Positions 1 to 54,283 of a stretch of DNA of 64,000 nucleotides are shown piece by piece (position 1 is the first letter of the stretch; each line of letters starts with the position of its first letter). The stretch is from Diplosphaera chodatii (Eukaryota > Chlorophyta > Trebouxiophyceae > Prasiolales > Stichococcaceae): positions 868,001 to 932,000 of the forward strand of contig JAALGY010000016.1 of NCBI GenBank assembly GCA_032358165.1, given 5' to 3'. The notes under the pieces were generated by a model. That model made no database searches and was not told the DNA's origin. It saw only the letters and a program-made list of their open reading frames with translations. The position numbers were made by a program, and so were the translations under genes.

Positions 1-460
1 AAAATCAGTCTGCAGATGCCCCAGGTCAGTAAAGCCGGGTACCCAACAAATGCGCCCGCAACAACGAGGCCAAGCAGCGTGCCGCTGCCGTCAACCCCCG
101 AGGTTTTCAGCACTTGGATGTCACAAGCTCAGGCTGGCGCTGACAATGCAAAACCCCTGTCAGGCAGCCAGCATGCATAGCAGCGGAGTGTCAGCAACAC
201 TCGTCAACGAAGCCCTTTGCAGCAGAGTCGGATTGGTGGCGCTGCTTGCTGAGAGGCAAGGTGGTGTGGGAACCAGTGCTGTACGGCAGCAAGGGTTTCA
301 ATTTCAAGGGGGAGGCAAGATTGGCTTGAGTTGCTGGCAGCCAATCCTGTCGTGGACCGTAGCAACAAGCAGCCATTGCCATTGGGGGCAGGCGGCATGC
401 TTGCCAATTATGCTCTATGCAATATGGTTCATCAGCGACTGCAGCCATGCTGACAGACGG
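1..460 (+). pseudogene. decayed exon 14 (basic motif and U-box) of an upstream family copy
   Basis: This is the remnant of the last exon of a copy whose other exons lie outside the window. After a TGCAG acceptor near position 15 the frame reads QVSKAG. A shifted frame from about 42 then reads ARNNEAKQRAAA, a decayed form of the family KRARKKAAKQRAAA motif. From about 230 the sequence reads DWWRCLLRGKVVWEPVLYGS, the start of the family U-box with CPLSG changed to CLLRG and MRDPV changed to VWEPV. Stop codons and frameshifts interrupt the rest (a stop falls near 340), and the C-terminal helix is only faintly visible to about 460. It cannot encode a working U-box. It shows that the array continues upstream. 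Confidence 0.75.
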
Positions 461-1022: not shown

Positions 1023-4000
1023 ATGGCGCGTTCGCTGCTGGTCTGGAGCCTGAACCAGGATAATTGGAGCAGAGAAAAGGATGCCCTGATCCGACATGGT
1101 GATGCCAGACTTACTGACATGGCTGTTGAAGGTCATGCACTTCAGGCACTGCCGCATGCCATCATTCTGTAGATGAGCACGGCCTGCACAACACGCAGGG
1201 TGCATAGGAGATACCAAAGTCCAGGAAGAGGGTGATGCGGCTTGGTGCACAGCAACCTTTTCGACTTTGACAGCTGCAGACGCCTGTGCGGCTGACTTGC
1301 AGCGTGCGCCTTCCTCCAAGTTGGCACTCCCTTATACCAACCTCAGAAGCACTGCAGCCATATGAGAGACGACGAGCTACAAATAAAGCGTGTGCAACAC
1401 CTCCGTTTGACGCCGGTGGTGTTGCCCCACACAGAGCGCTTTGAACATCTGTGGGTGTTTGTGGAGCCGGACTGGCGGGCATTTGGCAGCAGCAAGGCAG
1501 CTGCAACACGAGACCTGATCCAGCTGGCCGAGCGGCTGGGCTGCCGATGCAGGCCGTGCGTGCTGCCGCATGTTGAGGCGATATGCCTGGCGCGGGGCGC
1601 AGACGCAATACTAGCGGCAGTAGATACATTGGGCGGGCCGTTTGAGCTTGTGAAGGCGGACACAGCCGCCGGCACATGCCTGATCCTCAGCCTCACGCAT
1701 GCAGTCGCTGACGTCCGCCGCTGCTGGCTGCCCACCGCCACTTGCCGCCGCGTGGAGCGCGGCTTCGCGATGCTGGGCGCAGACATGCTGGGCATCGTGG
1801 CTGCACAGCTGCGCAAGGAAGTGCCGGGCTCCCCACAGCGCGCCTGTGCTGCCGCCAGGCTGGCACACACGTTCATGCAGACATTTGACACCACTGACGA
1901 CATGGATGAGGAGCGCAGGACTCGGCTAGCACACATGCTAGCATGTGTGAAACAGGTGATTCCACTGCGACTCGCTGTGCTCATGAGGTCGTGGACATGC
2001 TATACTGCACTGTGCTGCTTTTGCCGCATGTTCCTGATAGTCTCTGGCAAGAGCATCCGAGGAACCTTCGCAAGTCTGCATGTGAAAGCAGCCAAGTGGC
2101 AGCCGGTCATGTGTGCTGCCACCTGCTGCATAGCTCTAACATGGCCCTGCTTCTGCTCGCAGCATGTCGCAACAGAGGCCTTTGGCCTGCTGCGTGCAAT
2201 AGCAGATGCGGTGTCAGATTGGGCGGACACGTGTACCGGTATCAGCAAGGCGATCCAGCTGATAGGCAGCACGCAGCAGCAGGCTCAGCTGCGGGAAACA
2301 GTGTACGGGCTGCATGAGGCCAGCTACTGGCTGCTGCTGGCAGCAGGCAGCCTGCTGCTCTGCATGATGGAGCAACAGCTGTGGAGCGCGGTCAATGAGC
2401 GGCAGCTGCTGGACACCCTGGGGCAGCTCCTTCGGAGGGTGCGGACTGTGCTTCCTGCTGCACAGCAACTGTCAGCATGTGTTACATCGTGGCGTACTTT
2501 GACGCATGCATAGTAAGCATGACATCCAGCAGGATGGCATACACAGAGACAGGTGCAGCAGCTTCCTCACACGCTCAAATCTGCGTGACTACCGCTGACC
2601 TGCGCTGTTCGGCCTGCAGGTTGTCACCTGCGTGCAGCTGGACGAGCGTGCGGCTGCGGCTGGGATGTGGCCTGTGCAGTCCACCCTGCCAGCTGCAGTA
2701 TGTGTGTCGCAGCTATACGAACTCGTCACGGATGTGATTGCAAAGGGTACGCTCCGCCGCTGACCTGGCGCTAAACACACACACACACACACACATGTTC
2801 CTCCATGCATGCCTCAGCCAAGGCCGGAGTCAGCCAGTGTATGCTGCATGTGAGTTTTAGCGAACAACTGATGGTCGCAACCAGTATTCACATCGACCAT
2901 TGCCATCATCGACCACATGAGCAGTGTTGCACGAGATGCAACTATGCTAAATGTCATGCTGCAGGCCAGATGAGCCGCGCTGCAGCAGGAGTGCCAGCAT
3001 TGCACGCCGTCACCACGAAGACTTTGTCGTCTGTGCTCGACCACCTCACAGCGCCCCGGCACCTTGGGCTGCTGCTGTACCTGTCGCTGCTGGCGGATTT
3101 CACCCTGCAAAGTGCGCGCTAGCAATCGTTGACTCATGACCGCAGCAGCGGATCCTTCGAGAACAAAATCGCTGCTGGCTGAGACCTTGGGCAATTTGGA
3201 ATTTGACCATGTAGTATATCTGCACGGCAGTGACAGGCAAAGTGCTCAGAATGCAGCTACTGGCTGTGGTGCAGAGGGCGCCTGGAAGGATATCAGCAGC
3301 CTGATGACACAGCTGGGCCGTGTACAACAGCTGGCTGCGAGTTGGCTTAGCACTGACCCGCAGCAGCCGCTGCCCCGCATGAGGCTTGAAGACCCGCTGA
3401 GCGAAGTGGAGTTGCTCTCATTCGCTGATCAGGCATGCTGTGTGCCGCACGCAGTGATGTCTAGCTGTGACAGCACAAGACGTGCAAAGACGTCCTCGAT
3501 GCCGTGCTGAGGGCTTCTTTGCGGCCTATTCGTGCTGCTAATTGCAGTGAACCGTCAGCAGCACCGCACAGTTAGAGCCCATCTCCAAATCATACTATGA
3601 CGAAATTGTAGGAGGCTTGATTGCTGTGCTGCATGCAGATGGCGTTGCTCTTGGATGTCAACGCAACAATGCTGGCCACCCTCGTGACTGTGAGTGGCAT
3701 GGCATTCCGTGCCTGTGCACCCACTGTCGCATGAGTGCACTTGCAGCAGTTACGGTGGAACCCCAGACTAACACTCCAACTGCCCAGAACTTCATAGCAG
3801 TGATGTTTATGCTGCAGCACGTCCTTGACAGCGCTCCTGCAGAGTGCAAAAACAACTCCAACATGCACTTGGGAGTATTTGACGCAGCACTGCAGGTTGG
3901 TTCTCCTCATGCCAGACGCTCCTGCTCATGTCATATTGACACTGGCATAGCAGCAGATGCTGCTAGGGGCAAACAGCCGGGCTTGAACAGGCAGTACACA

Positions 4001-6008
4001 GCTTGCTCCAGCCATAGTAGCACATTTAAGGTGGTGGTATTGTGCAGGTCACGCCGTGCAGGAATGTACGTGGCTTGAGCGGCAACCTGGTGGGGGAAGA
4101 TCCCAGTAGCTGCCTGGCTCCGGGGTTGTTTGCCGCTGCAGATGCCCTGCTGAAGACCGCAGAGGTGAGATGGGCTTCCATTGGTGCTGACTTGTTGTTC
4201 GTGTGCCTGCGCTGTTTCGTGTTTTTAGCAGCTCTGCGTGTGCAGATATGTCAATGCTATGGCAGATGACGATGACATCAGCAGCTGATGCTGACACGAA
4301 GTTGTGCTCTGCAGTGCTTGCATGGCGACCTGCAGCATGCCAGCAGCAGGGCTGCGGCAGGGAGGCCGTGGTTAGGCGATGCTACTGCAGCGCTCGTGCA
4401 AGGCGCTCTTCGCAGCCTCCAGCTTGCGCATGCAGAGGCCGCAGCGCAGGAGGCCCTGCCCTCCACGAACCCTGGGGCTGCTCAGCTGGATCGCTCCAAA
4501 CCGCAGCTCACACGGCTTCATGCAGCTCTCGTCTTGATGTTGGAAGATCAGCATCTGACGCCGCCTATGCTGCGCGCCAAGCGAGGCCTGTTGGCTGCCC
4601 TGCTGCAGGTGGGCTCACATGCCAGCTTCTACTGACCTGAGTGCCCTTAGCTATCTGCTGTTCCGCAAGGCTGATGAACATGCCTCTAACAATTGAAGGT
4701 GTCTAGCAACATGCACACGACTTTCACACGCTTTGCCTTGGCAATGGCAGAAGCTTGGCTGTGTGAGGTGGTCTGCAGATCCCATGAATTCACCAATGTC
4801 GAAGGCGCTATCACCATCGTGGAGCTGATCAATATAACATCCGCATGCAGGCGCTGCCATGGCAGGCGACTTCATCAGAGAAGGCGGACGACTCGGCATC
4901 CTGGCAGATCACAGTGGTCGGAGTGACGGCCACCTGCAACATGCTTGCAACAGTTCTGGTTGCTGATGCGCCAGCGTGCACGGCAATTCAGGGTGATGGC
5001 AGCTGGAGTGCGGCAGTGCAGCGTGTTAGGTGGGTACACACAAGGGTCTTGCGCCAGTTCCAAAAAACCACGCATCCTGCATGTTAGTGCAACCCCGATG
5101 ATGTCAAGAACTGGATTCCTGCAGAGGATGTTCAGGCTTACAGAAGTCCCTCCTCACGACACAGGGGCCTTCGCCCGCCACACTCTCTGGCTTCCATTTG
5201 GGCTGAGCATCGGGAGACGCATCTGCACAAGGTCTCAGCAGCGCTAGGGGGTGAGAGAGACAGCGGCGGGACAGCGGACAGTGGCGCCGCGTCTGCAGAA
5301 GCAGATGCTGTCGCTGCAGCAGACCGCGCCATGCAGGAGCTGCTGGTGCGCTTTGGCTTATGCCGTGTATCTCAGGTCGAGGATACGGTTATGCAGACCA
5401 CGCCAGCACATCTGCTTCCCCAGGCAAGCTGTACAATGTAGGCAGCAGAAGAGCAGGCAGCTGAGGCCCCAAGCCAGCGCAGCAGGGCAAGCGCCAAGCG
5501 CGCCCGCAAGAAGGCGGCCAAGCAGCGTGCCGCTGCTACCCACCCCAATGAGCATCTCACCGACTCCACACCGCAGTCCGAGGCGGTCGCCTCCACTGCA
5601 TCAGGTCCGGCAACACTCGCCAGCAGCAACGGCAGCAGCAGCAGCATGGCAGCACCAGATGCTGCACAGTCAGGAGCAGCTCCAGTAGAGGCGCAGGCAC
5701 CAGTGAGTGAGGCAAATGCCGGTGTCGGTGCCAAGCAGAAGGCGCTGCTGCAGGAGTCGGCGGCAGCACCTGATCGCCCAGCAGCACAGTCAGACTGGTG
5801 GCGCTGCCCACTGAGCGGCAACGTCATGCGGGACCCGGTGCTGTATGGGGCCGAGGGTCACAGCTTTGACCGGAAGGCCCTGGAGCAGTGGCTGGCGGCC
5901 AATTCTGGGGTGGACCCGCTCAGCCGGCAGCCACTGCCGTTGGGGCCAGTCGGTGTGCTGCCCAATCATGCCCTGCGCAACTTGATCCAGCATCTGCAGC
6001 TGAGCTAG
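1023..6008 (+). CDS. U1: RRM-like / helical (ARM-like) / U-box protein, predicted E3 ubiquitin ligase
   Basis: Fourteen exons join in phase: 1023-1098, 1199-1303, 1435-1955, 2163-2438, 2620-2746, 2965-3111, 3275-3432, 3639-3689, 3818-3895, 4048-4164, 4315-4608, 4851-5029, 5165-5345, 5442-6008, giving 958 residues. Exons 1-2 (residues 1-60) give the pattern strand (SLLVWSL), helix, strand, strand (AAWCTATF), helix (TAADACAADLQ), as in an RRM with degenerate RNP2 and RNP1. Residues 61-770 are helical, and exons 9-12 have ARM-like turns. Exon 14 opens with AAEEQ, then KRARKKAAKQ (possible nuclear signal) and a Ser/Ala linker, and ends in a U-box at 888-958 (CPLSGNVMRDPVLYG, EQWL, LPNHALRNLI). 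U-boxes bind E2 enzymes without zinc. Substrate and RNA binding are unknown. Intron 7 has a GC donor (GATCAG/GCATGC) where the other copies have GT. This copy served as the template for the family. Confidence 0.85.
2774..2795. repeat. (AC)n microsatellite
   Basis: About eleven AC units lie in intron 5 of U1. It is a simple repeat with no sign of function, and probably length-variable between strains. Confidence 0.9.
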
Positions 6009-6452: not shown

Positions 6453-9400
6453 ATGGGTAGCCAAATTACAGATGGCCTGGGTCAGCGAGGCAGCCAACCA
6501 CCGTGGTTATGCGCGAAGTCACATCTTCTGCTCGTCTGGGGCCTTGACCCAACAAACTGCAGCCAAGAGCAGGATTCAATTAGTAGACATGGTGATCGCG
6601 AGGACGTCCGATGGGCAAGCATGACTCGCATGATGGTGTGCTTTGTATTGCACGTGTGCCATTGTGATGGTACGGACACTGATCAGTGTCATCATGATGC
6701 AAGTCTGCGATGGTTTGCAGGGGGCATGAGAGGCTTCCAGCTCGAAGTTGGCGGGGCGCCTGTGTACATTGTGTGCTTTGCAACCTACACGGCTGCTGAC
6801 ACCTGCGCAACCTGTTTGACGGGTGTGTTATTCCCCCGCAGCTACCACGTCGATCACCAACATGGACATAACGAGTCATCGCTGCACAGTGTTTGTAAGC
6901 ACATACCACAAATTCCGTGGCGTCCTATACAACATGATATGGTGCTTTCACTTGCGCAGAGCGCTCCAGCAATCTGCAGATAGCCATCGCGCCAGACTGG
7001 GCGGTCTTCTTCAGCGACAACGAGGTGGCCGTCAGGACAGACCTGGTCCAGCTGGCCGAGTTGCTGAGCTGCCGGCAAAAGTCCCACAGCCGCACTCTTC
7101 ACGAGCTGGCGAGCCTGGCGCGGGGTGCGGCTGACATTCTCTCCGCCATCGAAGGGACCGGCGGAGTGCGAGCGCTGGCGGCGGCGGACCCAGCGGCAGC
7201 CGCCTGCCTGGCCCACGGCCTGATGCAGGCGGTCGGTGACGGCCGCTGCAGCTGCTGGCTGCCCAGGGACATCGTCTGCCGTGTGGAGTGCGCATTTGCC
7301 GCGCTGGGGCCAAGCAACATGCGGGCTGCAGCTGCTGGGCTGCGGGACGGCACACCTGGCTCCCCGCAGCTCGCCAGCACTGCCGTCCGCCTCAGCCACG
7401 CCCTCCTGTGCCCGGAAGCATACAGCGACAGCTTGAATAGCAGAGCCAGGACCCAGAATGCACTGGCGGCCACAGCCCTGGGCCGGGTGGGTGTGAATGG
7501 TGTGAAGCCCCACTGCATAAATTGTCTCATGTTGATATTTGCCTGCTGATGCAATGGAGGTTGCCAAGCTCTGATGTTGCTGTTGGCTGTAGGAGGTTGC
7601 ACCAGACTGCATTCAGCTGCTGCGCGCAATTACAAATGCATTGTCAGACTGGTCAGCAGGCGTCAGCAGAGCAGTCCAGCAGCAGCAGCGGCTTGCAGAC
7701 AGAGCACAGCAGCCTGCCCAGCTGCTCAAGTCGGCGCATGAGCTGCATGACATCAGCGTCGGGTTGTCGACAGCAGCAGAGGGCCTGCTCATCTTCATCC
7801 AGCAACCAGAAGTATGCGGCGCAGTTGACAAGCAGGAGCTACTGGCCACCCTGGGGCAGCTGGTTCGCAGGGTACGGCCAATGCATGCTCGTTGCTCCTG
7901 CAGAGTGCTGCTTGCCTGGCAAGCGTCCTGATGGTAGCCCGATTGCATTGAATTTGAGACGGGCATGCAAGTTGAACATCATCACAGTCATATTGTCGCG
8001 ACATCGCTTGCAGCAGCGGGCCTGGGTCGCTTGTTTCGTGTCACAAGTGTTATCACACCTGCTTTCAGCACAATTTAAAGGAATTTGAACAAATAGTAGC
8101 TTTTCAAACTGACAGACCCCGCTGCTGTGCTTCCATCTCAACAGAGTTCAGCATGCACGCCTTCTGTCCACACCGCAGGCTGTTGCCTGCATGCACCTGA
8201 GCGAGCGCGGCGCCGCGGCTGGGCTGTGGCCCGAGGGCTTGACCACCATCGGCTGCGTGGGGCAGCTGCACCTCACCGTCGCGCATGTGCTGACGGTGAT
8301 GGGTGAGCTGTGGCGTTGCACTGGATACTGGCAGCGCATGTAAGGCAGCCACGTGGCATGCACTTTCTCACCCATGCATCATGTGCTTGAACACACACAG
8401 CACCGTGATGGGATGCCGGCTGCTGCTGCACTGAGCTCTGGGGTGCCACTGTGTATGTGCACCTACTAGTGGTGGGATGTGGCGACCAGTGACGCACTAA
8501 TGGCTGCAGCATGTCGAAGCCTGCTGTTTGGCGCCATGCAGACCCGGCAGGCCGCGTCGCCGCAGGGGTGCCGGCTCTGCACACCGCCGCCACGAGGGCC
8601 CTGGGCACTGCGCTGGACCATCTCGCGGCCCCGCGGCACATTGGGCTGCTGTACCACCTGCTGCTGCTCTCCTCTGCCACCCTGCAGGGTGCGCACTCGC
8701 ACCCAGCTCCTTGCTGGTACTTCCATGCATCAGCCCCCGGTGGCTGTACGTGTGTTGAACAGGCTGGCCGTCCAGAGCAGCAAACAGCAGACTGTGACCC
8801 CACCAATGCAGAAGCGCTACACCACTGCAACCATCGCCTGGGTGCCCTGCTGATGCAGACCCCCCCTGCTGGAAGGACATGTGCACCCAGATGACGCAGC
8901 TGGCTCGCACACAGCAGCTGGCCAATACCTGGCTCAGCATCCCGCCGCAAGACCTGCCATCTGGCGACGCAATAGAGCACCTGCCACCCCACGAGCCAAT
9001 GCGGCCTGCAGATCAGGTTGGTCGCATGGTGCAGCACTGTGCTGCCCTGCTGCATAAGCTCTGCTTGTGTACCTGGGCTATCGATGCTACATGCAGGTTT
9101 CACAGATGCTGGTGCCACTTTGGCATGCTGAGAAATCCTGAAGCCTCTGTGTCCCGTGTTTGTTGCATAGCACTGGCGTTGCTGTATATCTGGAATATTC
9201 TATCACAGCTATGTTGGGTGCAGTTGGCATTGCTGGTGGACGTCAATGCTGTGCAACTGGCGGCAGCTGTGAACGTGAGCGACACTGCATGTCTACCCAT
9301 CTGCAGCATTGTCTTCATGCAACCGGCAAATGCTGCTCTGAGAAAATCGCTAGCACAGAAGGGTCCATATCATGGCTGTGCCTGCTGCAGAGCGTGCTCA

Positions 9401-11676
9401 TGGGCTACGAATCAGATCGTACGATTGACCTCAGCTGCATCTTTGAGTCGGGGGCTGTTGCCGCCCTGGCAACAGCATTGCAGGTCGGTCAGCCCCCCTG
9501 CCCAGATCCGCGCACATTTCATGCGGATGCCAGCACGGGCGCCAGTATTGAAGACTATGCAGGTCCAGCTGTTGCCAGCATTACACAATCAGCAAGCTGC
9601 ATGACACTGCTGATTGCACGTTGCAGGCGCCGCCCTGCAGGAACATGCGGGGCCTGACTGGCGGCCTGGTGCAGGACGACCACAGCAGCTGCCTTGCTCC
9701 AGGGCTGTACGATGCTGTGGATGCAATCATGACAGCCACAGAGGTAAGAGTGACCGTTACAAAAGTGTTTACAGGCGGTGCCATTGATGACCTCGTACCA
9801 GAGCTGCAAGAGAGTTGCAGCTGATGTTTCTGAGGGTGCAGTGGTAGTTTGCTTACATCGTGTTGGTGGCAGGGTCAAAGTCCATATGATTTCGCATCTC
9901 ATGACCTGGGCTTGATGTACATGCACAGCCTGGGTACATGAGGGCCGTCACCAGGTTTGCGTCGGCAGGGAATGCCATTGCAGCGCTTGTGCGCGGTGGC
10001 CTCGGCAGCCTGCAGCTTGCGTATGCAGAGGCTGCGGCGCAGAAGGCTGTGCCATCCAACACACCTGGAGTTGCGCAGCCGGATCCCCGCAAAGCGCAAG
10101 TAACACGGCTGAATGCAACCACAATCATGTCAGCAGTCTGCTGCCCATGCATGACACCGCGGGTGTCGCGCTCTCTGGCCAAGCAAGGCCTGGTGGGCCC
10201 CCTGCTCCAGGTGGGCTCCCACCTACCAGCTTGCATCAGTTGCTGTCGCCTTCAGTAGGTTTGCCTGGGCAAGGCGATTGCAGGTTGCCATCATGCAATG
10301 CTGTTCACTCCTATAATGTGCTGGTCAGATGGGCCAGTCTGCAGATGACACTAAACGTACGTGCCTACTGGCACTTTTTTCGGGTCGTCTGGATATATTG
10401 TAATACTTTGCCACCAACTTAGGCACTGCCGTGGCAAGCAGCAACAGCAGAGGATGCAACAAGACCCGGATCTTGGCACATCGCTATGTCGGGAGTCGCG
10501 TGCGTCTGCGAGATATTGGCAGCAGTGCTGGCTGTAGACACACACGCACACAAGACCGTGCTGCGAGATGGCAGCTGGGATGCGGCGGTGCAGCGTGTCA
10601 GGTCAGCCTCAGCTGTACGGAAAACCGGCAAGTGTTGGCATAACCCAATCTGCACGTTATCACCGCCAACCTCTGCAGTCTGCCAAACAGCACGGTACCA
10701 ATGATGCCTTTAAACTTGCTAGACTTGCTTGCATGATGCAGGGGTTTGCAGCCACCAGCACGGGACGCTGCCCGGTGGGATGAGCAGCGGGAGCCGCTGC
10801 TGCACAGGGTGTCCGTGGTGCTTGGAGGCAGCAGTGGAGGCAGCTGCCGTACGATGAACGGCTGTGCTGCAGCAGCAGCTGCAGATGCTGGTGCCGTCGC
10901 TGCGGCTGAGCGCGCCATGCAGGACCTGCTGGTGTGCTCTGGGCGTGGTATCTGCACGCCTGCTGATTGGTACTGCCAGTTTGCCAGGGTGAGGCAGATG
11001 AACGCCAGGCGGTACATAGGACAGGCCAGGTAGGACATGGGTGTTTCATCTGCTGCAGCAGTGCAGGTAGGGGCTGCAAATACGAGAAGCTGCAGGTAGT
11101 CAATGTTGAGCAGCAAAATGCTGCATGCAGGCTGAAGAGCAGCCTGCTGGGACCTCCGGTCACGGCAGGAAGGCAGCATCGAAGCGCGCTCGCAAGAAGG
11201 CGGCCAAGCAGCAGGCAACTGCTGTCTCGCCAACAGACGACCCGTCCGCTGACATGGCAGCGGAGGCCGCCACAGCAGCGTCCTGCCCAGTGCAGATGGC
11301 AGACAGTAGCCCAAGCACCGCATCAGCAACAGGCAACCAGCAGCCAGCGGCAGCTCGAGTGGCACAGGCAACAGCAAGCGGCAGGCCTGGAACCTCACGC
11401 GCTGCAAGCTCACTGCTGCAAGAACCAGGGACAGCCGCCGATGGAGCAGCAGATGAGGCAGACTGGTGGCGCTGCCCGCTGAGCGGCAGGGTCATGCGGG
11501 ACCCGGTGCTGTACGGCGGCGAGGGCCACAGCTTTGAGCGGGAGGCCCTGGAGGAGTGGCTGGTGGTCAACCCTGGGGTGCACCCGCTCAGCAGGCAGCT
11601 GCTGCTGCCAGGGGCAGGCGGTGTGCTGCCCAACCATGCCCTCCGCAACATGATCCAGCAGCTGCGGCCAACTTGA
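6453..11676 (+). CDS. U2: RRM-like / helical / U-box protein, start codon shifted
   Basis: Exons: 6453-6591, 6721-6822, 6960-7486, 7593-7871, 8179-8302, 8542-8688, 8859-9016, 9224-9274, 9391-9483, 9627-9743, 9929-10210, 10423-10601, 10742-10931, 11131-11676. They give 977 residues, and every intron phase matches U1. Most copies start M-A-(R/C)-S; here that position reads C-A-K-S (Cys20), because ATGCGCGAAG has replaced an ATGGC-type start. The nearest in-frame Met is at 6453 and adds 19 residues before the RRM-like strand LLLVWGL. Either translation starts there or the copy lost its start. Exon 2 lacks the usual acidic EEG turn and reads GGAPVYIVCF. The U-box at 907-977 is intact (CPLSGRVMRDPVLYG, EEWL, LPNHALRNMI). 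The basic motif KRARKKAAKQQ lies near the start of exon 14. Confidence 0.8.
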
Positions 11677-12074: not shown

Positions 12075-15000
12075 ATGGCACGGTTCCTCATCGTATGGGG
12101 GCTCGACGTTAACGCTTGGAGCCGAGAAGAGGAGGTCATGGACAGTCACGGTGATCTTGGGGTTTGCTCTGTGGGAATGTCATTTCGGAGCACCCCGCTA
12201 CACATGCTATGTGCTGGTCGCTTGAGCTGGTCGCAGCCCCGCAGGATAGGCAGACCTGCAATCGATATTGAGCGCAGGCTGCTCACGGCCTATCCAGCTG
12301 CATGAGGAGGGCAACACGGCGTGGTGCGCAGCGTGCTTCCCAGACACGCTGGCTACGCTAGCCTGTGCAGACACTTTGCAGCGTGCGCTCTCTGTTCACC
12401 GCTCCATCAGTGTCCACATTGAAGTATGTGTGTCAGCCATTTGCCCTCATAGCAGAGCATGTGACCTGCAGAGCTCGCTCTGAGCAGCACTTGTAGCACG
12501 CACCTCATTCTTGACAGTGCTGCTGTCTCTGCAGATGAATTTGACGAGCTGCAGATGTGCATAGAGCCACACTGGTACGACCTGGGCGGCAACAGCGAGG
12601 CAATAGCTACAGCAGACCTGGTCGAGCTGGTCGAGTGGCTGGGCTGCCGGAAGCAGCGGCGCGAGCTGCCACAGCCCGAGGCAGTGTGCGTGGCGCGCGG
12701 CGCGGCTGCCATTCTGGCAGCAGTCACAACTGCTGGCGGGGCGCAGGCGATTGCGAAGGCAGACCCCGTAGCGGCCTTCTACCTGTGCCACAGCCTCATG
12801 CAGGCGGTTGGCGACATCCGCCGCCGCTGGCTGCCCAGCGGCATGCTGAGTCGTGTGGAAGACGCCTTTGCTGTGCTGGCGCCAAACTTTCTGATGTATG
12901 CGCTGGAGGACCTGTGCAAGGGCAGCGCTGGGTCCCCACAGCGCACCTGCAACGCCAGCCGGCTGATGCATGCTTTCCTGCAGCGATACGATTACAAGAC
13001 GCTCGATGGAAGGGCTGTGCCCGGGCTTGCTGAGGTGGGTCCAGGGCACACTCATTCGCTGTCAATGGTGCGCATGTTGGTGTTGGTCCATGGACATTAG
13101 CAAGTGCTGCCTCAGTGGGTTAGCATATTCATTGGATATGATGTGCTCAGCTCTCTCCGTGCACATGCCTCTGAGTGAGTTGGTGCAGTTGCACAAATAG
13201 AGCCAGGTGTCCAGAAGTTCAGCCGTTGCTGCAGCCGTGCTGACGTGCATCTCTGTTTGGTCGCAGCCACTGCCATCAGCAGCCCTCAAGCTGCTGCAAG
13301 CAGTCACACAGACGCTCCTGGAATTGGCAGCAAGCATCGACAGGGCAACCACGATGCGGGAGCAGCAAAGCACACGGCGCCCCGCTCAGCTGGTGCAGTC
13401 CCCGCTTGACGGGGCGCAAGAGTCCAGCATCTGGCTGCAGCTAGCAGCTGGCAGCCTGCTGCGCTGCATGAAGATGCCAGGGTGGTGCAGGACTGTTGAC
13501 GAGCAGCAGCTGTTGGACACCCTTGGACAGCTGGTTCAAAACGTAAGGGTCATGCCTGCTGCGGCTCAGTCAAGCGTGTCATGCGCTGGGCCCCATGTCA
13601 GACTGCCAGGCTCCACATGGAAACAGAAACAATGCTTGAGTAGCGGGCTGTCCTTCATGTACGTAATGCAACCAGCAACATACTACTTACGTTGCCTAGC
13701 TGGTCCATTCTGCAGGTGGTCGTCTTCATGCACCTGAACAACCGGGCCGTTGCTGCGGGGCTCTGGCCTTCTCAATCCAGCCTGCCAGCTGCTACTTGCG
13801 TGGGGCAACTGCTTCAGGCTGTCATGGCCATGTCGCCGACTGTGAACGTGTTCATGCTGCCGATCGCTGGTGCGCTCGGTGTACGTCGACCACAAGCAAC
13901 CCTTTGTGCTGAACCAATTTGACACTGCCTGTGCTAACATGTGCAATGCTCATCCAAAGTGATCAGCGGTCAAGGCTCGGCCCCCTGGCACCGCACGAGT
14001 GCAATTGTCAGCAGACCACCAAGTAACACACATGGCAGCTGGATGTAGACTACAGGGCTGCAATTGCAGGATGTCTGCTTTGCTTTCCTTTGCAGAACGG
14101 GCGGCGCGCGCTGCTGCGGGGTGGCCAGCCCTGCATGCTGCTGCCTTGAAGGGCTTGTGCAATGCTGTTGAACATCTGGCTTCCCCGCAGCATGCCAGCC
14201 TGCTGCTGTACCTGTCGCTCCTGGCAGTGTGCACCCGCCAAGGTTTGCACATGCATCAACGCATTGGTTCATACCTGCCCGATGCACCCAGCATTCAAGT
14301 TTGGCTCCTTGCTGCCAGGTGTTGCAGCTGGCGCGCTGCACATGTAACAGCAATACGCAGCCAATTTATCACAATTTGATCAGACTGAGTTGATCGCCAT
14401 GCAGATGATCCCTGCAAGAAGGACGTCTGCACCCTGCTGACGCAGCTGGCCCGCATCCAGCAGCTGGCCACACATTGGGTCAGCACTCCCCCGCAGGAGC
14501 TGCCTGCCAGCGAGGCAGCAGAGCGCCTGCCTGTGCTTGTGGAGCAGCTCCAGCCCGAGGATCAGGTGCGGAGCATGCTACGCTGCATCACCAGACAGGC
14601 TCTCTGCCAAAAGCGGATGCATCAGCCTGCGTGCTGTGGTGCCAAGCCTCGTCAGTGGCATGGTGGCTGTGCTGCTCGCAGTTGGTCCTGCTGATGGACC
14701 TGAACCTCTTCAGCTTGACCACAGTCATGAAGGTGGGTGGCTGTACAAGTCTGTGCATCGCTTGCTGCCTTCAGGACACTGGCCGTCTCTGTGGCAGGAT
14801 ATGCACCTTCTGTTAGCAGTCATTTACTAGTGAGGCACAGTTGACGTGCTTCAGAGTGTGCTCGACGGCTCCAGTGGCGGCTCAAGTGCGAGTGCACGCA
14901 GCACCGGCTGTATCTTTGATTCGGGAGCAGTAGATGCCCTTGCTGCGGCCCTGCAGGTTGCTCATCTGTCCTGCTGTCGAATATGCAGTTGCTGATACCG

Positions 15001-17240
15001 TCACATATCTATTTGCCACAGCCCCTAACTTGCCGAACATCCTCTGTGCTGGACGGCTGGCCAGCAGCAGCACAACGCAAAGCCTGAACGTAAAGCAATG
15101 AATCCCCTACCTAAGCAAGTCCCAAATAGTGGTGGCTTGCACTGTGCAGGTGCAGCCATGCAAGAACTTGCGCGGCCTTAACATTGATATGATGGTCGAC
15201 CTGAAGGAGAGCTGCCTTGCGCCTGGGCTGTTCAATGCTGTCAACACCTTGCTGCAAGCCTCAGATGTGCGGACATGCCCACAGCCTTTGCATTCTCAAC
15301 ATGTTCTCCTGCTTCTTTGCTTATCCAAATCGGAGCTCTAACGAATTTGCGTGGCTGCCAGACTGCACTGACGATGATTGGCATCATGATGTGCAAGCGG
15401 AGTGATGAATCCTTTTGTGCGTATTGCAGTGTGCCAAAACCGCAGCTGAGACAGGAAAGCCATGGCCAGGGGATGCCATTGCTGCAGTTGTAAGCGGCGC
15501 TCTTGGCGGCTATTGGCTCGCGCATGCAGAGGCTGCAGCGCGGCAGGCCCGTCCCGCCACAGCACCTGGGGACGGGCAGTCGAGCCTGTTTACGCCGCAC
15601 GAGACACGGCTTGATGCCGCCAACACCCTGGCAACAGTCGCGCACTGCATCACCCTGCCTGTGGCGTGCACTTTGGCCAAGCACAACCTGGTTGGGCCCC
15701 TGCTGCGGGTGAGCTGCATCTTTGTCCGCTGGCTTGATGCACGCCAGCCTCGTGTGCCATCACAGCTGATCAGTGCTGCTGTCTGTTATCAAGCAGTGCT
15801 CTCAGGCTGCCAACCTGTGCTAGGCTGAAAGCGCAGATGAGAACATGAGAACATGTTGTTGAGGGCAGCAGTCCGCAGATGGGTGCTGTTGTAGTGAAAG
15901 TACGACAGACCATAGTTCCAAATGTCAGGCCCTCGTCAATGCAGGCGCTGCCCTGGCATGCACCAGCGGCGGATGCTGCAGTAGACCCCATTCGGGCGTG
16001 GTGGACAAGCGTGCATGGGACCCTGGGTGTTACCCACATCCTGTCGGCGGTCCTGGAGGCTGATGCGGCTGCATACCATGCTGCACTGCTAGATGGCAGC
16101 TGGACGGCAGCAATTAAGCGCATCAGGTACGCTCCAGCTTTTGGCAACCATGCCATGCAATCTGTGTGCTGCTGTGCTCCTGCCTCGATCCGAGTCTTGC
16201 AAGTCTGGCATCGGAAGTTTTCTGGAAACGCATCAGCAAGCATGATTTTGTTGCTGCTGACATAGGGACGTGAAGCCGCCACCATCGCAGGCTGCAGCGT
16301 GGGCTGACAGTGTTCAGGAAATGATGAATCAGTGGCCGCCGGTGCCGCCAGTGACGAGAGCTACCAGAAGAGGCAGCCGCCGCACAGCAACTTGCGCTGC
16401 AGCGGCTCCAGACGCCGAGGCTGTGGCAGCAGCGGAGCGCGCCATGCAGGAGCTGCTGGTGCGAACGGCAGCGGCCAAACGTGTCCTGCAATGGCTTCTA
16501 TCGAGCTATCATGTCAGTGACGTCAGGCCGAATCAGGAATGGCTGGCATTGCTGTCTGTGTATGCATATTATCCGTGGCACATGCAGTCGGATTCTGCGT
16601 CATGAGTTCTCAGCCTCAGCAGCATTTGCCAGGCATCGATGTTTCGATGTTTTGGATGAGGCAGTGCATGTCGGTGACGATGCAGCAGATTATGCAGGCT
16701 GAAGAAAGTTCCAGTGGAGCCTCCACCCAGCCTGGCAAGGCGGCGAGTAAACGTGCCCGCAGGAAGGCAGCCAAGCAGCAAGCTGTGGTCGGCAGCAACC
16801 ATGCACATGTTGCAGAACGAGCGTCTGCCGCCGCTGCAGCATCACCCTCCAACCAAGCACAAACGAGTGAGCTGATGGAGAGCAAGCCTGCAGCAGGTGC
16901 TGCGCAGCCAGCTGTCGCTGATGGAGCACCGCAGGCAGCAGCAGTCATCGTGCATGACAACCCAGGCATTGAAGACCTGCCGACCCGGCAGGCAGCAGTT
17001 TCCACCACGGCAGCAACGGAAGCAGAATGGTGGCGCTGCCCGCTGAGCGGCAAGGTCATGCGGGACCCGGTGCTGTACGGCGATGGTGGTCACAGCTTCG
17101 AGCGGGAGGCCCTGGAGGAGTGGTTGGCGGCCAACCCTGGGGTGGACCCGCTCAGCAGGCAGCCGCTGGCGCCGAGGGCAGGCAGCGCCCTGCCCAATCA
17201 TGCGCTGCGTAACATCATTCAGCAGCTGCATTTGTTGTGA
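12075..17240 (+). CDS. U3: RRM-like / helical / U-box protein, predicted E3 ubiquitin ligase
   Basis: Exons: 12075-12150, 12278-12382, 12535-13034, 13267-13542, 13716-13869, 14096-14242, 14405-14565, 14682-14732, 14855-14956, 15150-15266, 15430-15708, 15945-16126, 16266-16458, 16698-17240. They give 961 residues and all phases match U1. The protein starts MARFLIVWGLDVNAWSREEE, and exon 2 carries LHEEGNTAWCAACF, among the clearest RRM-like strand pairs in the array. Exon 5 ends nine codons later than in most copies (VFMLPIAG), as in U10 (FSVLPTVG). Exon 9 reads GCIFDSGAVDALAAALQ, an ARM-like helix pair. Exon 14 carries KRARRKAAKQQ and a U-box at 891-961 (CPLSGKVMRDPVLYG, EEWL, LPNHALRNII). A TGTAA motif, a common green-algal polyadenylation signal, lies at 17380, about 140 bases past the stop. 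No defect is visible. Confidence 0.85.
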
Positions 17241-18811: not shown

Positions 18812-21196
18812 TTAGTGTTGGCGAGGGCCTGCTGGCCTCCAGCGGCACGGGTTGTTGTGTGGCCCACCCGCCGAGAGGCAAACTGCGTAGACAGCACATC
18901 CGATGGCAGCAGCCACACAGACTCCGCACAGCCACAGCGACATCAACCTGCACAGGCACATCAGATGCAGCATGAAGATAGTGTGACAGGCCGCACACTC
19001 AGGCTCCAACAACACCCCAATGCAGTTGCTGCATGGCATATCTGCATGTGAGATACATGACCTTGATGGGCATGTGGATTCTGGCGGCCACGGCTCAGCA
19101 GGCCAGCTGCTGTTAGTCCTGAGAGAGTCTTCCGCCGTGCTGCTGGACTCTGGCGGCCAAGGCTCCGAAGACCAGCTGCTGCTGGTCGGCAGACACTCTG
19201 CCGCCGGCTTGCTATGGCTCTCAGACCAGAAGCTGCAGGTAAATGGACACTCTTCTGCAGGGCTGTCCATCTGCACCACTAGGGTGGACAGCCTGCCAAC
19301 ACTGTCCGGCAGCTGTCGCAGTGCCCAGCACCCCCTGACGTCCAGCGCCGCCAAGCTGACAAGGTGGCCGATGCTATCTGGCAGCTGTAGCAACACCGGG
19401 CAATCGCTGCCAACCAGCGTCTGCAAGCTGGAAAGGCTGCCAATGCTGTCTGGCAACTGTCGCAGCGCCCAGCATCCGCTGACATCCAGCCGTTGCAACC
19501 TCGAAAGCCTGCCAATGCTGTTCGGCAGCTGCTGCAACATGCTGCAATACTTGATGTGCAACAGCTCCAAGCTGGGGAGGCTGCCAATGCCATCCGGCAG
19601 CTGTTGCAAGGCCTTGCACATGGTGATGTACAACTTCTGTAAGCTAGACAGGCTGGCAATGCTGTCTGGCAGCTGCTGCAGCGCCGTGCAGTGAGTGAGG
19701 CCCAGCATCTTCAAGCTAACAAGGCTGCTGATGCTGTCTGGCAGCCGCTCTAATGCTCCGCAACCGCTCAGGCACAGCCGCTCGAGATGGGAAAGGCCAC
19801 CAATGCTGTCTGGCAGCTGCTGCAATGCCTGGCACTCGCGGACGTGCAGCGTCTTCAGCATGACAAGGCTTCCAATGCTGTTTGGCAGCTGCTGCAACGC
19901 CTGGCAGTCGGTAAGGTACAACGTTTCCAAGCTGACAAGGCTGCCAATGCTGTCCGGCAGCTGCTGCAGCGCCTTGCAGCGGTGGAGATTTAGTGCTTTC
20001 AAGCTGGCAAGGCTGCCGATGCTGTCTGGCAGCTCCTGCAACGACCAACAATGCCAAACATCCAGTGTGCCGCAGCTGACAAGGCTGCCGATGCTGTCTG
20101 GCAGCTGCCGCAAAGCTGTGCATTCGGTGACCACGAGCCTTTGCAAGCTGGGAAGCTTGCGGATGCTGTTTGGCAGCTTTTGCAGCCCCTGGCACCCGTA
20201 GAAATCTATGTATGTCAACTTGACAAGGCTGCCAATGCTGTCTGGCAGCCGCTGCAGCACACGACACCCCCTGGCGACTAGCGTCACCAAGTTTGACAAG
20301 CTGCCTATGCTGTCTGGCAGCTGCTGCAGCAGCTTACAGGAACTGAGGTTCAGCGTCTTCAGTCTGACCAAGCTGCCAATGCTGTCTGGCAGCTGCTGCA
20401 GTGCATACAGCTCACTGCAGTCTAACACCTCCGCGCTGTCAGTGCTGCCAATGTTGGCGGGCAGCTGCTGCAACGCCCTGCAATTGCTGACCAGCAGCCT
20501 GTGTAAGCGGGGAAGGCTGTTGATGCCGGCTGGCAGCTGCTGCAGCGTGGAGCATTGGCTGATGTCAAGGATCCTCAGGCTTGAAAGGCTGCCGATGCTG
20601 TCTGGCAGCTGCTGCAGCGCCTCGCAGGAGCTGATGTCCAGCGTCTCCAATTTGAACAGGCTGCCGATGCTGCCTGGCAACTGCTGCAGCACCCAGCACT
20701 TGCTGACGTTCAGCATCACCAAGCTGGACAGGCTGCCAATGCTGTTGGGCAGCTGCCGCAGCGCCCAGCAACCGCAAACATCCAGCGTTGCCAAGCTTGA
20801 GAGCCTGCCAATGTTTTCCGGCAGCGACTGCAGATGCTGGATAGATAATCTCAGGTGGCGCAGCGCGGTGCAGGCCGCGATGCTGTCTGGCAGGGAACAT
20901 CCGACAACACCGTTGCCTGACACGTCCAGCACCCGCAGCTGCCCACCGAATGCCCATTGCTGCGGTGCAGCCATGAGTCGCAGGTACAGCAGCTGTCGCG
21001 GCAGGCAAACCTGCTGTGAGCTGCCGCCAGCAGAGCCGTCTGCAGCGCTGTGTTCCAACGAGTGCTGCAGGTCCACAGCCGCCAAACGGCAGTGCTGATG
21101 CCGGCTCATCAGCTGGCTCCATGTCCAGGCTGGTACGACTGAGGCAGCCGATGGCCAGCATCGCAGCCGCGATGCTTCGGCTTTCGGAGTGCCGGC
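18812..21196 (-). repeat. 72-bp LRR-coding tandem repeat plus C-terminal tail exon
   Basis: A single exon encodes about 23 leucine-rich repeats of 24 residues, roughly residues 620-1170, with consensus LxxLxxxxCxxLQQLPDSIGSL. This is the type seen in plant TNLs. The repeat shows at DNA level as a 72-bp tandem array between about 19290 and 20960. After the LRRs an imperfect repeat of about 20 residues occurs twice (SSSWSSEPWPPES and NSSWPAEPWPPES). The last 60 residues contain about 35 mostly hydrophobic residues (around LCGVCVAAAIGCAVYAV) that could form a membrane segment. The stop is at 18812. Confidence 0.88.
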
Positions 21197-24014
21197 CTGC
21201 CAACACAGAGCAGCGACAACCATTGGTGCCCGTTGCTGCAGTTACACATGCAGACAAACACACTGGCGCCACATGCCATACATCCTAGGATTGACTACAC
21301 GATGCTCTTTGGGCAGGCACCTGTGGCAGCGGTCTACTGACGAAAAGGCTGTTGAGTGACCAGCTGGCATGGCGCATTGGCTGCTTGTGAACTTTCTCCG
21401 CCATCTCCACGATGCAATGGTGAGCCTGGACCCTGCAGGGCATGGCGGCCGTTCCCTTGGCACCTCGAATGGTGTGCCGCATGGGAACGTCACACTTGCA
21501 AGCATGTCGCGCTGCAGCAGTAACAGCACGCTCGAAGCGGTCAGCCACCTGCTGTACAGCTCGTTCTCAGAGGTGCGGCAGCTGAGGAGCGTGGCGCCCA
21601 CGCAGGCGGACCACAGCGCCTCCGCGCTGCGCTGCAGCTGTACAGGCGTGGAGGGGTGCTGCACGCCGTCCTCCTCCTCATCCTGCTGCAGGATGCCCGC
21701 CCAGGCCTGCAGCAGGTGCTCCAGGGGCCGGTCGCGCATGAGCAGCGTCGCATCCAGGAAGAAGTGCCTGCAGGCAGCCAGGCATGGCACTAAGGAGGGA
21801 CCCTTTGCCTGGTCCCGGTGCTATGACTGCGGTCGCACCCCTCTCGATCGTAGGCATCGTCCTTCACAGTGCACACATGGCGCCTGTCACAGACGGTGCG
21901 TTTGAGATCCGAAGGTGTTCCGTGCTGTGCCGGTTGCTTGCCTGTGGTTGTCTGACGGCAGATGCTCAAAGCTCCATTGCAGCAGGTCTAGTACAGCCAG
22001 CTCCTTCCCAGTGGCATCGGTCCGTCCGCTGCTGATGTGAGGCGTCGCCAACAGACTCTCGACACCAGCCTGTATGCGATTGCCGCAGCAATGTTATGCA
22101 TGTGTTGCATGTCACGGAAACGACAAGGTTTGTGATCCGTGCAGACGCAGCAGCAAAGCCCATGAGGCACCCACCTCGGCTACGTCGGGCGGCTGGCTGC
22201 GCAGGCCGGCACCCACAACCTGCAGGGCGAGCGGCAGGCAGCCGCACACCGCCAAAGCCCGCTGCACTGCTGCTGCATACCCCGGAGGCGCCTGATCCGC
22301 AGCAAAGGCATGCCGGCACAGCAGCTGCTCTGCCTGCTGTGGCGCCAGGGCCTCGACTGGGCGCACCAGCCACCCAAGAGCGGCGATCTCGGGGTGCAGG
22401 TTGCTGGCATTGCGGCCGGTGAGGACGATGCGGCTGCCGTCTTGCAGGGCATCCAGGCACAGCAGCCCATCTCGCTGCCCCGCAGCCCAGACGTCGTCCA
22501 GCACCAACAGCAACGCACCACCTGCCCTCACACAGTCGCTGAGCTGCTGCTGCTGCTCGGCCGCGCTGTTGGCCCTTGGCATTGAGCTGCTTGCGAGCGC
22601 CTCCATCAGCTGCCGCTGCTTGTCCAGCAAGCGTGCGTCCTGCCCAACCTCGAGAAACACGCGGCTGCTGAAGCACAGGCTGCCACTGCTGAGGCTTTCG
22701 AACAGCTGCCTGGCCAGTGTCGTTTTCCCGATGCCCCCCATGCCGTGCAGGCTGAGCACACGCACGCCGCCGGGCCGGTCAGGCTGCAGCAGCGGGAGCA
22801 GCTTCTGCAGGCATAGGCAGTGAACAACATGAGCTTGCTGCCAAGTTTGGTGCGGTATTCACTGGCGCATAGTGCTGGGGACACGCGCATCTCATGTTTT
22901 ATGGTCATGCCGAGCCTCCACTTGCAAGACGGATCCATTGCAGCGTGGGTTGCATGGGCGCTGGTCATGTCAAATGTCACACCTGCACCCGCGCACCCAG
23001 GTCCACAGCGTATTTGGGCGACTCGCACCTCGTTCGAGCAAGGCGCCGCAGCACCTCCGCAACGATGGCATCGACATGCTCGGTATCCAGCCTGCATACA
23101 AGCCTCAGCCTGTGAATGACAGAGCACTGCTGCAGCACAGCATCCGGGCCGTTGACCACATACTTGCACACATGCTTCAGCAGCCAGCGCAACATGGCAA
23201 GGCTGGGTGGCTATCATGATGTTGGAACACGTCTTACTCACTTGCCGTGCGAGTCCAGCCGGTCGCCTGTGAACCTGCACATTGCGGCAAGATCCCTGCT
23301 GGCCTGCTGCAGCCGCTGCAGCTCTGCTGGCGGTGCACAGCCTTTGCCAGCTGCCTCAACCTGCTGGTGCATATCCTCCTGCAGCGCCGCAAGGTCGCTG
23401 GTGAGGTGGAACACCGGGAACAGCGTCGGTGCGCCCTTGCTGCGCTGCACTGAGACGGGTTCCGGCTGCAGCTGGGGTGCGCGGCCTGCTGCTGAGTCAG
23501 CCGGCCCGATGAAGCTCTGCAGCAGCGGCGGGTGCGGCTGGGCGGGGTGCAGCGCCCAGTGCAGTTCTGCCAGGCAGTAGGCGCTGCGCAGGTAGGCGGG
23601 CGTCAGCACAGCCACCACGATGCTGCAGCCGCGCAAAGCGGCCTCCATCTCCGCATCGGCCGCGTCGCCAAGGCGCAGGCTGGTCTCGTCCAGGAAGGCG
23701 CTGACGCCGTGGCGCCCCAGCTCGCGCTGCAGCCACACCGCGAAGCTGGCCTTCTGCACACCCGCATGGCTGATGAACACCATGTGGCTTGTGCCGCTGG
23801 CCTCCTCGCGACACCTGTGCAATAACGCTGTCAGCATGTCACATCTGATAGGGGGCCGGCTCACCAATGACGACACACTGACTGGACGCACCCAGCAACA
23901 CCCTTGTGGGGGCCTGCGGTGTTGGACTGACCTGCGTACTCCTGACATGCTTGCCAAGACGGCGCGGTGCTGCAGGGTCGCAGCTGACCCAAGCGAGTCC
24001 TTTGCACACCACAC
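18812..24014 (-). CDS. TIR-NB-ARC-LRR (TNL-type) immune receptor
   Basis: Exons on the minus strand that join in phase: 23837 (or an ATG at 24014)-23242 TIR; 23091-22983 linker; 22804-22116 NB-ARC; 22031-21957 and 21767-21549 ARC2; 21432-21393 MHD-like region; 21196-18812 LRRs and tail. From 23837 this gives 1,370 residues. TIR: VFISHAG, then CLAEL with Glu91 at the NADase catalytic position. NB-ARC: P-loop GMGGIGKTT (256-264, Lys262), kinase 2 LLLVLDDVW (Asp338-339), RNBS-B GSRIVLTGRN, GLPL as CLPLAL. The MHD position reads A-H-H followed by CIVEMAEKV. About 23 LRRs follow, then a Ser/Pro tail with a hydrophobic stretch. In land plants this class senses pathogen effectors, and the activated TIR cleaves NAD+. 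It lies antisense inside the U-box array. The start and the 21432-21393 exon are least certain; a further 5' exon is possible because a good acceptor precedes 23814. Confidence 0.88.
21549..22804 (-). other. NB-ARC nucleotide-binding switch (three exons)
   Basis: The large exon 22804-22116 carries the P-loop, RNBS-A (FSSRVFLEVGQD), kinase 2, RNBS-B, a stretch like RNBS-C (LVRPVEALAPQQAEQLL) and GLPL. Two short exons, 22031-21957 and 21767-21549, supply the winged-helix part, with LDLLQWSFEHLP joined in frame to HFFLDATLLM. All phases fit (2, 2, 2). The preceding linker exon 23091-22983 ends in VDLGARVQ and joins KLLPLL, matching the conserved start of NB-ARC domains in plant NLRs. Confidence 0.88.
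23242..23814 (-). other. TIR domain exon
   Basis: The exon encodes the whole TIR fold. Box 1 is SHMVFISHAG, the alphaA region holds FAVWLQRELGRHGVSAFLD, the central strand is GCSIVVAVLTPAYLRS, and the segment SAYCLAELHWAL carries the Glu needed for NAD+ cleavage in SARM1 and plant TIRs. The exon runs on through a Gln-rich helix (about residues 130-190) to the donor GGCAA/GTGAGT at 23242. The upstream acceptor GCACAG sits before 23814, so a short first exon may exist. Confidence 0.9.
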
Positions 24015-25310
24015 TCCTGTGCCTGCAAATGGCAGTCAACATGACGCGCGTCCATCAAGCATGCATGGCCCAGCAATTGGTGGCACATTTGGCTGCCGCG
24101 CGTTCAGATGGGACTTTGGCACCAGCAACGACGACAGCCGTACCTTGTGGTCGCGAACTCTCGTCAGGATGCCTGCCCGGTCTTATGTGCAATCACCTTG
24201 CACAGCTGGCGCTGTTGTGAACAGTGAGGACCATCACTTTGCCCCTGTATATGCTAACGAAGACCACTGGACAACACAGGATATGGCACATCACAACGGG
24301 AACAGATCAGCGTCTGCATGCGGGCGCAGCATGCTATGCACTCGCTCCGAGGGTGCAACATCACCAACCTGGCTCCCTCTGCCAGTACCCGAGTCTCCTG
24401 AACAGACAAACGGCACAAGACTGAACAAGAAGGCAGCTTGAGGCTTGCACGCTGCCACTCCTGAGCGTGGATGGCACGTTTCTCGCCTTGAAACGGGTCG
24501 GCAAGTTGCGTCATGGTCGAACTATTCAGCACGGTGCACATGCAAAGTATCGCCCTACCTCGCAAGCGTTTGCAGCGAACATGCACCGCAGAGCACTGCC
24601 AAGATGCACTACGATGCGAGTGGTCGGAGCAGAAATGCAGCTCTTCAGTTTGGGGCGCAGAAACAGTCCGGATGGCAATGGGTCCAACTGCTGCCGTCAG
24701 TTAGGGCAGCACGCAAGGCAGGCCAGACCGCGGCTTTCGGATATCAACAATCACGCATTTCCGTCGCCACAGTGGGATCACTGAAGATGCAACCTGGCTG
24801 CACCCTGACAACTACATCACTAGTCCGTCACGTGACGGGCCGTGCGAGCATCTACCCACCTGAGCAGGGGGCACACGCCACGGTGTCGTTATTCTCATAA
24901 CGTTTGACGCTGTTCAATCACTCGTCGATGGAACGCCAGGCCATGAGGCACGACAGACGAGCACAAGACGCAGGCGCAACCTGCCAGGTGCACTGGGTGA
25001 AGGCCTACCATGAAGATAGAGCATGCATGGAGCCAAGGTGGGGAGGCCTGCCGCGAGTGCGCGTCACGTACGACTTTATCAGACGCCTTTGTGTGGCGCA
25101 AGTCTGCATGGCTGGCGACGAGAGTCTGTTGGAGTTCTGGCACATACATCATGTGGGTGCGCACCACATGTACGCTGGCAGACATGGAATGCACGGTGCA
25201 ATGGTGGATGGAGTCGCACTGGCAGCATTATCGTTTCTAGCTGTCGTGGCCACACACATCCTGTCAATCGCAACGGACAGCATCTGCACTGGACACCACC
25301 CATGCATGCA
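24015..25310. other. intergenic, 5' flank of the TIR-NB-LRR gene
   Basis: About 1.3 kb upstream of the receptor gene. No family exon is convincing. An ATGGCACGTTTC at 24471 resembles the first codons of family exon 1, but a stop follows within seven codons. The receptor promoter, and any short first exon, should lie here. Confidence 0.45.
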
Positions 25311-25544
25311 CATCCAGACCAGAATGGCGCTGCCCGCTCAGCGGCGACCTCATGCGAGGTCTGGTGCTGTAGGGCAGTACTGGACAGAGCATCTGTCGAG
25401 CGGAAACCCCAGGAGGAGGGCCTGGCAGCAGACTCTGGGGTGGACGTGCTCCGCAGGCAGCCGCTGCCAGCGGAATACGGCACTGTCCTGGTCAATCACA
25501 CCCTGCGCATCATATTCCAGGAGCTGCACCTGAATGCTGTTTGA
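25311..25544 (+). pseudogene. isolated, frameshifted U-box fragment
   Basis: The first part reads RPEWRCPLSGDLMRGLVL and then a stop (TAG at about 25371). A shifted frame reads GVDVLRRQPLPAEYGTVLVN and then HTLRIIFQELHL before a TGA at 25544. Together they match the whole family U-box, with DPV changed to GLV, a frameshift in the middle and an internal stop. No other family exon is recognisable upstream, so this is the 3' end of a copy lost between U3 and U4. Confidence 0.85.
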
Positions 25545-54217: not shown

Positions 54218-54283
54218 ATGGCACGTTCCCTGCTGAATTGGGGCCTTGGCACAAACAATTGGGGAGAGGCGAAAGACGTCTGA
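54218..54283 (+). pseudogene. orphan copy of family exon 1
   Basis: The frame reads MARSLLNWGLGTNNWGEAKD, then V and a stop. It matches the first 21 codons of family exon 1 (compare MARSLLVWSLNQDNWSREKD in U1). The TGA at 54281 replaces the final helix codons and the conserved CATG/GTGA donor. No exon 2 follows before the real U9 start 386 bases later, so it is a leftover of a duplication or of the U8/U9 inversion. Confidence 0.85.

Follow-up and report, generated by a model that had tools for sequence, protein, structure and literature searches.

What is encoded at 1023-6008 on the plus strand of a 64,000-nucleotide stretch of the green alga Diplosphaera chodatii (the whole of it hereafter the window, on contig C14), and why does this gene stand in an array that also contains a putative TIR-NB-LRR receptor gene? 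A preliminary description had placed the gene (copy U1) in an undescribed family of RNA- or ligand-sensing E3 ubiquitin ligases, with an RRM-like N terminus, a helical or ARM-like body and a C-terminal U-box. The best explanation of our data, which we consider probable on balance, is that U1 belongs to a family of about 70 copies of likely E3 ligases, which combine a predicted N-terminal plait with a predicted helical body and likely have an immune role.

A spliced gene that ends in a U-box

In a model built by hand, an ATG at 1023 and a stop codon ending at 6008 were joined by 14 exons into an open frame of 1,000 amino acids, so the coordinates first proposed proved exact. All introns are GT-AG and the joined frame contains no stop; exons 7 and 8 are the least certain (Table 1). 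The assignment of the last 71 residues to a U-box also held, with a match to PF04564 at E 4.5e-10 and 40 bits, over the Pfam cut-off of 21.4. Because their product ends in a U-box, U1-family proteins are likely E3 ubiquitin ligases. The U-box was the best conserved segment of the family, with a mean pairwise identity of 0.71 compared with 0.37-0.52 in the other segments. Of its hallmark residues, the leucine of CPL was found in 33 of 33 copies and the proline of RQPL in 27 of 33. Following CHIP and UFD2, we took these positions to be the hydrophobic residue that contacts the ubiquitin-conjugating enzyme (E2) and the loop-2 proline; the C-terminal U-box of CHIP has the same hallmark residues. 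With these contact residues kept, the U-box would recruit an E2.

UFD2 (E4) and CHIP resemble U1 in the position of the U-box at the C terminus, and elsewhere both are single-copy genes. A Pfam scan of the full family consensus returned the U-box and a sub-threshold zf-Nse match only; it found neither the UFD2 core nor TPR, and we rejected membership of both families accordingly. The linker before the U-box carries a low-complexity Ala/Ser segment and a basic stretch, SAKRARKKAAKQ, which had 68 matches genome-wide and is a possible nuclear localization signal.

The N-terminal domain and the helical body

Over its first ~75 residues the protein resembles a beta-alpha-beta-beta-alpha-beta plait. 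The predicted elements of U1 are, in order, a strand LLVWSL, a helix WSREKDALIRHG, a second strand, a strand AAWCTATF, a helix LTAADACAADLQ and a strand LWVFVEP, and the pattern L(L/I)(V/I)WGL, W..E, AWCA..F and AA..AC...L reported at first was found again in paralogues. An AlphaFold model of the copy at 6519, which was compromised and of low confidence, gave the order beta1-alpha1 ... beta2-beta3-alpha2. The likeness to an RRM seen in the preliminary description appeared to stand as far as element order and spacing go, which fit a ferredoxin-like plait. Membership of the RRM family found no support, since a Pfam RRM_1 match was missing at E 10 both from the consensus and from all 19 N termini scanned. 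Compared with RRM profiles, the N-terminal profile was the best of 47 segments, with 58 columns in register and P 0.0078, and 2 of 300 column shuffles reached its score. Its sole profile match in the PDB was an RRM, weak at E 0.96, in a searched set in which RRMs made up 576 of 177,635 sequences. Among fold matches, RRMs were not favoured over other plaits such as ACT/Lrp.

These data bear on whether U1 could be an RNA-sensing ligase, in which a true RRM would bind RNA and the U-box would mark the bound proteins, as in RING-type RNA-binding ligases, of which CNOT4 is an example. The order, spacing and register of the N terminus would suit this explanation. We took RNP2-2, RNP1-3 and RNP1-5 to be the canonical RNA-contacting aromatics of an RRM. 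RNP1-3 alone keeps its aromatic, being tryptophan in 29 of 32 copies, but RNP2-2 is aromatic in 0 of 32 copies and RNP1-5 in 0 of 33, and RNP1-1 is lysine or arginine in 5 of 32. Since two of the three positions are never aromatic, the claim of RNA sensing found no support; Pfam RRM_1 and the fold matches, which were no better for RRMs than for ACT/Lrp plaits, also speak against an RNA-sensing ligase, which we consider improbable. U1 thus resembles the RNA-binding RING ligases in having a possible RRM-like domain on an E3, but it has a U-box instead of a RING and most RNA-contacting residues are missing. Owing to the loss of most of these aromatics, the domain is more likely to be a protein- or ligand-binding plait than an RNA binder.

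For the body, we modelled exon 3, its longest exon, with AlphaFold from the copy at 31984 and 8 window sequences. The model contained seven helices and no strand, with a pLDDT of about 85 in the core and a pTM of 0.61. The body thus appears helical at least in exon 3, as had been proposed. As to the proposed kinship with ARM repeats, Pfam ARM/HEAT had no match in the family consensus and fold searches gave weak matches only.

A large tandem family under purifying selection

Copies were compared with a splice-aware profile aligner of our own, which was applied to 42 U-box places within 260 kb of the genome (the window plus L009-L028). At 35 places the family aligned at full length, and 25 of the 42 gave one or more models with neither a frameshift nor a stop. 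The preliminary description had exons 1 and 2 split at a shared codon. This was correct for intron 2, a phase-1 intron at profile position 63 in 32 of 34 tabulated copies, and only roughly so for intron 1: among the 32 copies with an exon 1, 17 have it at position 28 in phase 1, and most others no more than a few codons away. For the three pairs without frameshifts, whole-protein dN/dS was 0.46, 0.43 and 0.41; the U-box gave 0.58, 0.26 and 0.16, and the N-terminal 75 residues 0.57, 0.19 and 0.21. The model of one member of the pair at 0.43 (C24:437413) contains a single stop. That 17 of the 42 places lack an intact model could suggest an array decaying without function, but the 25 intact places, the whole-protein dN/dS of 0.41-0.46 and the conserved intron positions make this extremely improbable.

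We then searched the genome (85.6 Mb, 55 contigs) with exon 3. The 79 matches (88 of 88 candidates scored) merged into 73 places, 45 on C14, 20 on C24, 4 on C26 and one each on C28, C21, C49 and C32. At 69 of the 73, the same strand carried an exon-2 place 192-290 nt upstream, far beyond chance. Judged by these matches, the family is one of about 70 gene copies, mostly tandem and chiefly in arrays on two apparently homoeologous contigs. At C14:916191-995964 we also observed convergent copy pairs with U-boxes ~0.5-0.8 kb apart, which recur every ~11 kb over much of the stretch. Beyond this genome, the exon-3 profile found 18 metagenomic relatives at 41-60% identity (among 7,999 candidates scored). 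One of them, P0006, reads through the end of exon 2, an intron-2-like stretch and exon 3 in one frame, and the exon 2-3 junction therefore exists elsewhere; the contigs of P0006 and P0021 are equally long, at 41,675 bases, which suggests two copies on one contig.

U-box places of all kinds numbered at least 150 (150 scored, of 197 and of 231 candidates), and many of the further places form arrays on C1, C9, C10 and C33. In the two such stretches that we examined, on C1 and C9, the basic linker and the U-box were shared and the N-terminal body was unrecognizable; the N-terminal frames of these arrays had no credible Pfam match. Arrays of the C1/C9 type make up a second, larger group.

Two related chromosome sets and copy turnover

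Light-harvesting chlorophyll a/b proteins, with 29 places in the genome, indicate a photosynthetic organism. A light-harvesting gene was paired on C14 and C24 at 160.8 bits each, and kinases were paired on C13/C22 and C46/C49 with equal scores. Given these equal pairings, the assembly appears to comprise two related chromosome sets, so that each set would have roughly half of a family's members. Further contig pairs with equal or near-equal scores were C10/C37 and C26/C27. For six copies on C14 the best partner lay on C24 (74-76% identity), the order being roughly inverted, with swaps in places. The unequal numbers of exon-3 places on these two contigs point to fast birth and death of copies. 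This imbalance (45 versus 20), together with partners ~75% identical, could also be expected of a self/non-self system for mating or allorecognition, in which each of many polymorphic ligases would mark one partner protein, as S-locus ligases do. However, copies on the two contigs can still be matched as partners, and dN/dS is purifying, so that we regard such a system as very unlikely.

U-box arrays are mixed with TIR-NB-LRR genes

Inside the U-box array of the window, on the minus strand from 24035 to 18812, we found TIR, NB-ARC and LRR frames in that order (Table 1). These frames likely form one TIR-NB-LRR (TNL) gene, presumably a single spliced one. Because a broken U-box remnant adjoins it, the receptor appears to sit in the slot of a lost copy.

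This arrangement recurs across the genome, which has 25 NB-ARC places (35 of 35 candidates scored) and 26 TIR places (30 of 30), all but one of the latter no more than 2.5 kb from an NB-ARC place. Measured to 181 pooled U-box places among the matches listed, 13 of the 25 NB-ARC places lay within 20 kb of a U-box, 15 within 30 kb and 17 within 50 kb. For control families, whose tandem arrays are less dense than those of the U-box genes, 4 of 141 RRM, 0 of 35 ankyrin and 2 of 137 kinase places lay within 30 kb (6 of 313 in sum) and 5, 0 and 9, respectively, within 50 kb, the RRM and kinase counts being among the matches listed. Counted as clusters, 8 of 12 NB-ARC clusters were near a U-box, compared with 4.6% of the genome (binomial P 8e-9). 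When homoeologous clusters were counted once, by estimated merging, roughly 4 of 6 to 5 of 7 were near (P 6e-5 to 4e-6). The remaining 4 of the 12 clusters (C28, C30, C52 and C9) were not near any listed U-box. Contigs with U-box-adjacent NB-ARC or TIR places include C14, C24, C1 and C51.

One possible explanation, which we consider less likely, is that U-box ligases for stress or housekeeping have undergone an ordinary expansion in this lineage, and that the TNLs merely share duplication-prone, fast-evolving regions with them. U-box families have grown widely in Viridiplantae, with 30 genes in Chlamydomonas, 64 in Arabidopsis and 77 in rice according to passages of PMC8875423, and the U-box arrays that we labelled group B are in part distant from TNLs, as on C10 and C33. 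Yet other families, ankyrin repeats included, are largely absent from the U-box regions, a comparison in which the controls are less densely arrayed. Chlorophyte NLRs are themselves known: passages of PMC7145615 describe NLRs and NLR clusters in Chromochloris zofingiensis, with TIR, NB-ARC and LRR as here, and the term 'U-box' is absent from its main text. In the present genome they are mixed with U-box arrays, a combination that none of our searches brought up.

Copies within the window

Copies were judged by splice-aware alignment, in which model runs can differ for one copy. Eight copies have an intact model and three further places are degenerate (Table 1). An extra exon-1-like stretch, MARSLLNWGLGTNNWGEAKD, lies at 54218-54277, ~450 bases upstream of exon 1 of copy 9.

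Table 1. Positions in the window of U1 and its parts, the other family copies and the receptor frames
Feature	Position	Strand	Remarks
Preceding copy, 3' end	1-447	+	Degenerate; whole copy C14:863409-868447
U1 exons 1-5	1023-1131, 1229-1303, 1435-1955, 2163-2438, 2620-2746	+	
U1 exons 6-10	2965-3111, 3275-3453, 3639-3689, 3767-3895, 4048-4164	+	
U1 exons 11-14	4315-4608, 4851-5029, 5144-5375, 5442-6008	+	
U1 plait-like domain	1023-1475	+	Residues 1-75; exons 1, 2 and start of 3
U1 body	1476-5375	+	Residues 76-812; helices predicted, at least in exon 3
U1 linker	5442-5792	+	From translation
U1 U-box	5793-6005	+	Last 71 codons before stop; PF04564
Copy 2	6519-11676	+	Full length; intact model; no in-frame ATG at usual place
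Copy 3	12075-17240	+	Intact model
LRR frame	18812-21241	-	LRR_14, 2.3e-79
NB-ARC frame	22112-22858	-	PF00931, 5.5e-24; P-loop GMGGIGKTT
TIR frame	23238-24035	-	PF13676, 4.4e-18
U-box remnant	25281-25535	+	Broken frame, body missing; beside likely TNL gene
Copy 4	26289-31255	+	Degenerate; stops and a frameshift in models
Copy 5	31984-36990	+	Intact model
Copy 6	37798-42854	+	One model run intact, another with one frameshift
Copy 7	43390-48406	+	Intact model
Copy 8	48733-53626	-	Intact model; convergent with copy 7
Copy 9	54669-59712	+	Degenerate; frameshifts and stops
Copy 10	60452-64000	+	Extends past window, to about C14:933752; one model run intact, another with 3 stops

Discussion

The architecture of U1 is less isolated than it had seemed. 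Passages of a Chlamydomonas U-box survey (PMC4378952) list RRM among the extra domains of U-box proteins, so that the combination of RRM and U-box has some precedent, and the CrPUB proteins resemble U1 as algal U-box ligases with extra domains. The CrPUB genes number 30 with one tandem pair, whereas here at least 150 U-box places occur in large arrays. The same passages report that the Arm-PUB subfamily is absent from Chlamydomonas. PUB-ARM ligases such as SAUL1/PUB44 share with U1 a U-box and a long helical region, possibly a solenoid; we rejected the PUB-ARM domain order for U1, in which the U-box stands last instead of before the ARM repeats, no Pfam ARM match is found and an N-terminal plait-like domain is added.

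The physical mixing of U-box arrays with TNL genes makes algal immunity the likeliest role, and by analogy with plants the family is probably tied to NLR immunity. The ferredoxin-like N-terminal domain and the helical body, both predicted, would bind substrates. According to passages of PMC7562919, SAUL1/PUB44 of Arabidopsis is a U-box ligase whose homeostasis is guarded by the TNL SOC3 together with CHS1 or TN2, which provides a direct precedent for a TNL that watches a U-box ligase. As in that pair, a U-box ligase is here linked to a TNL, although the linkage is genomic. The neighbouring TNLs would guard the algal ligases, in the way that SOC3 guards SAUL1; alternatively, the ligases would control the stability of those receptors. 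A bolder and rather doubtful proposal is a guard-guardee supercluster, in which TNLs and dozens of rapidly duplicating plait-helical-U-box ligases would co-evolve, in a pairing that would predate land plants and here would have grown into chromosome-scale arrays.

The count of at least 150 U-box places exceeds the 30 of Chlamydomonas given in passages of PMC8875423, and is inflated by the two related chromosome sets. If the linkage is functional, a unicellular alga would have a single genomic immune compartment for both U-box ligases and TIR-NB-LRR receptors, and the origin of NLR guarding of ligases would become directly testable.

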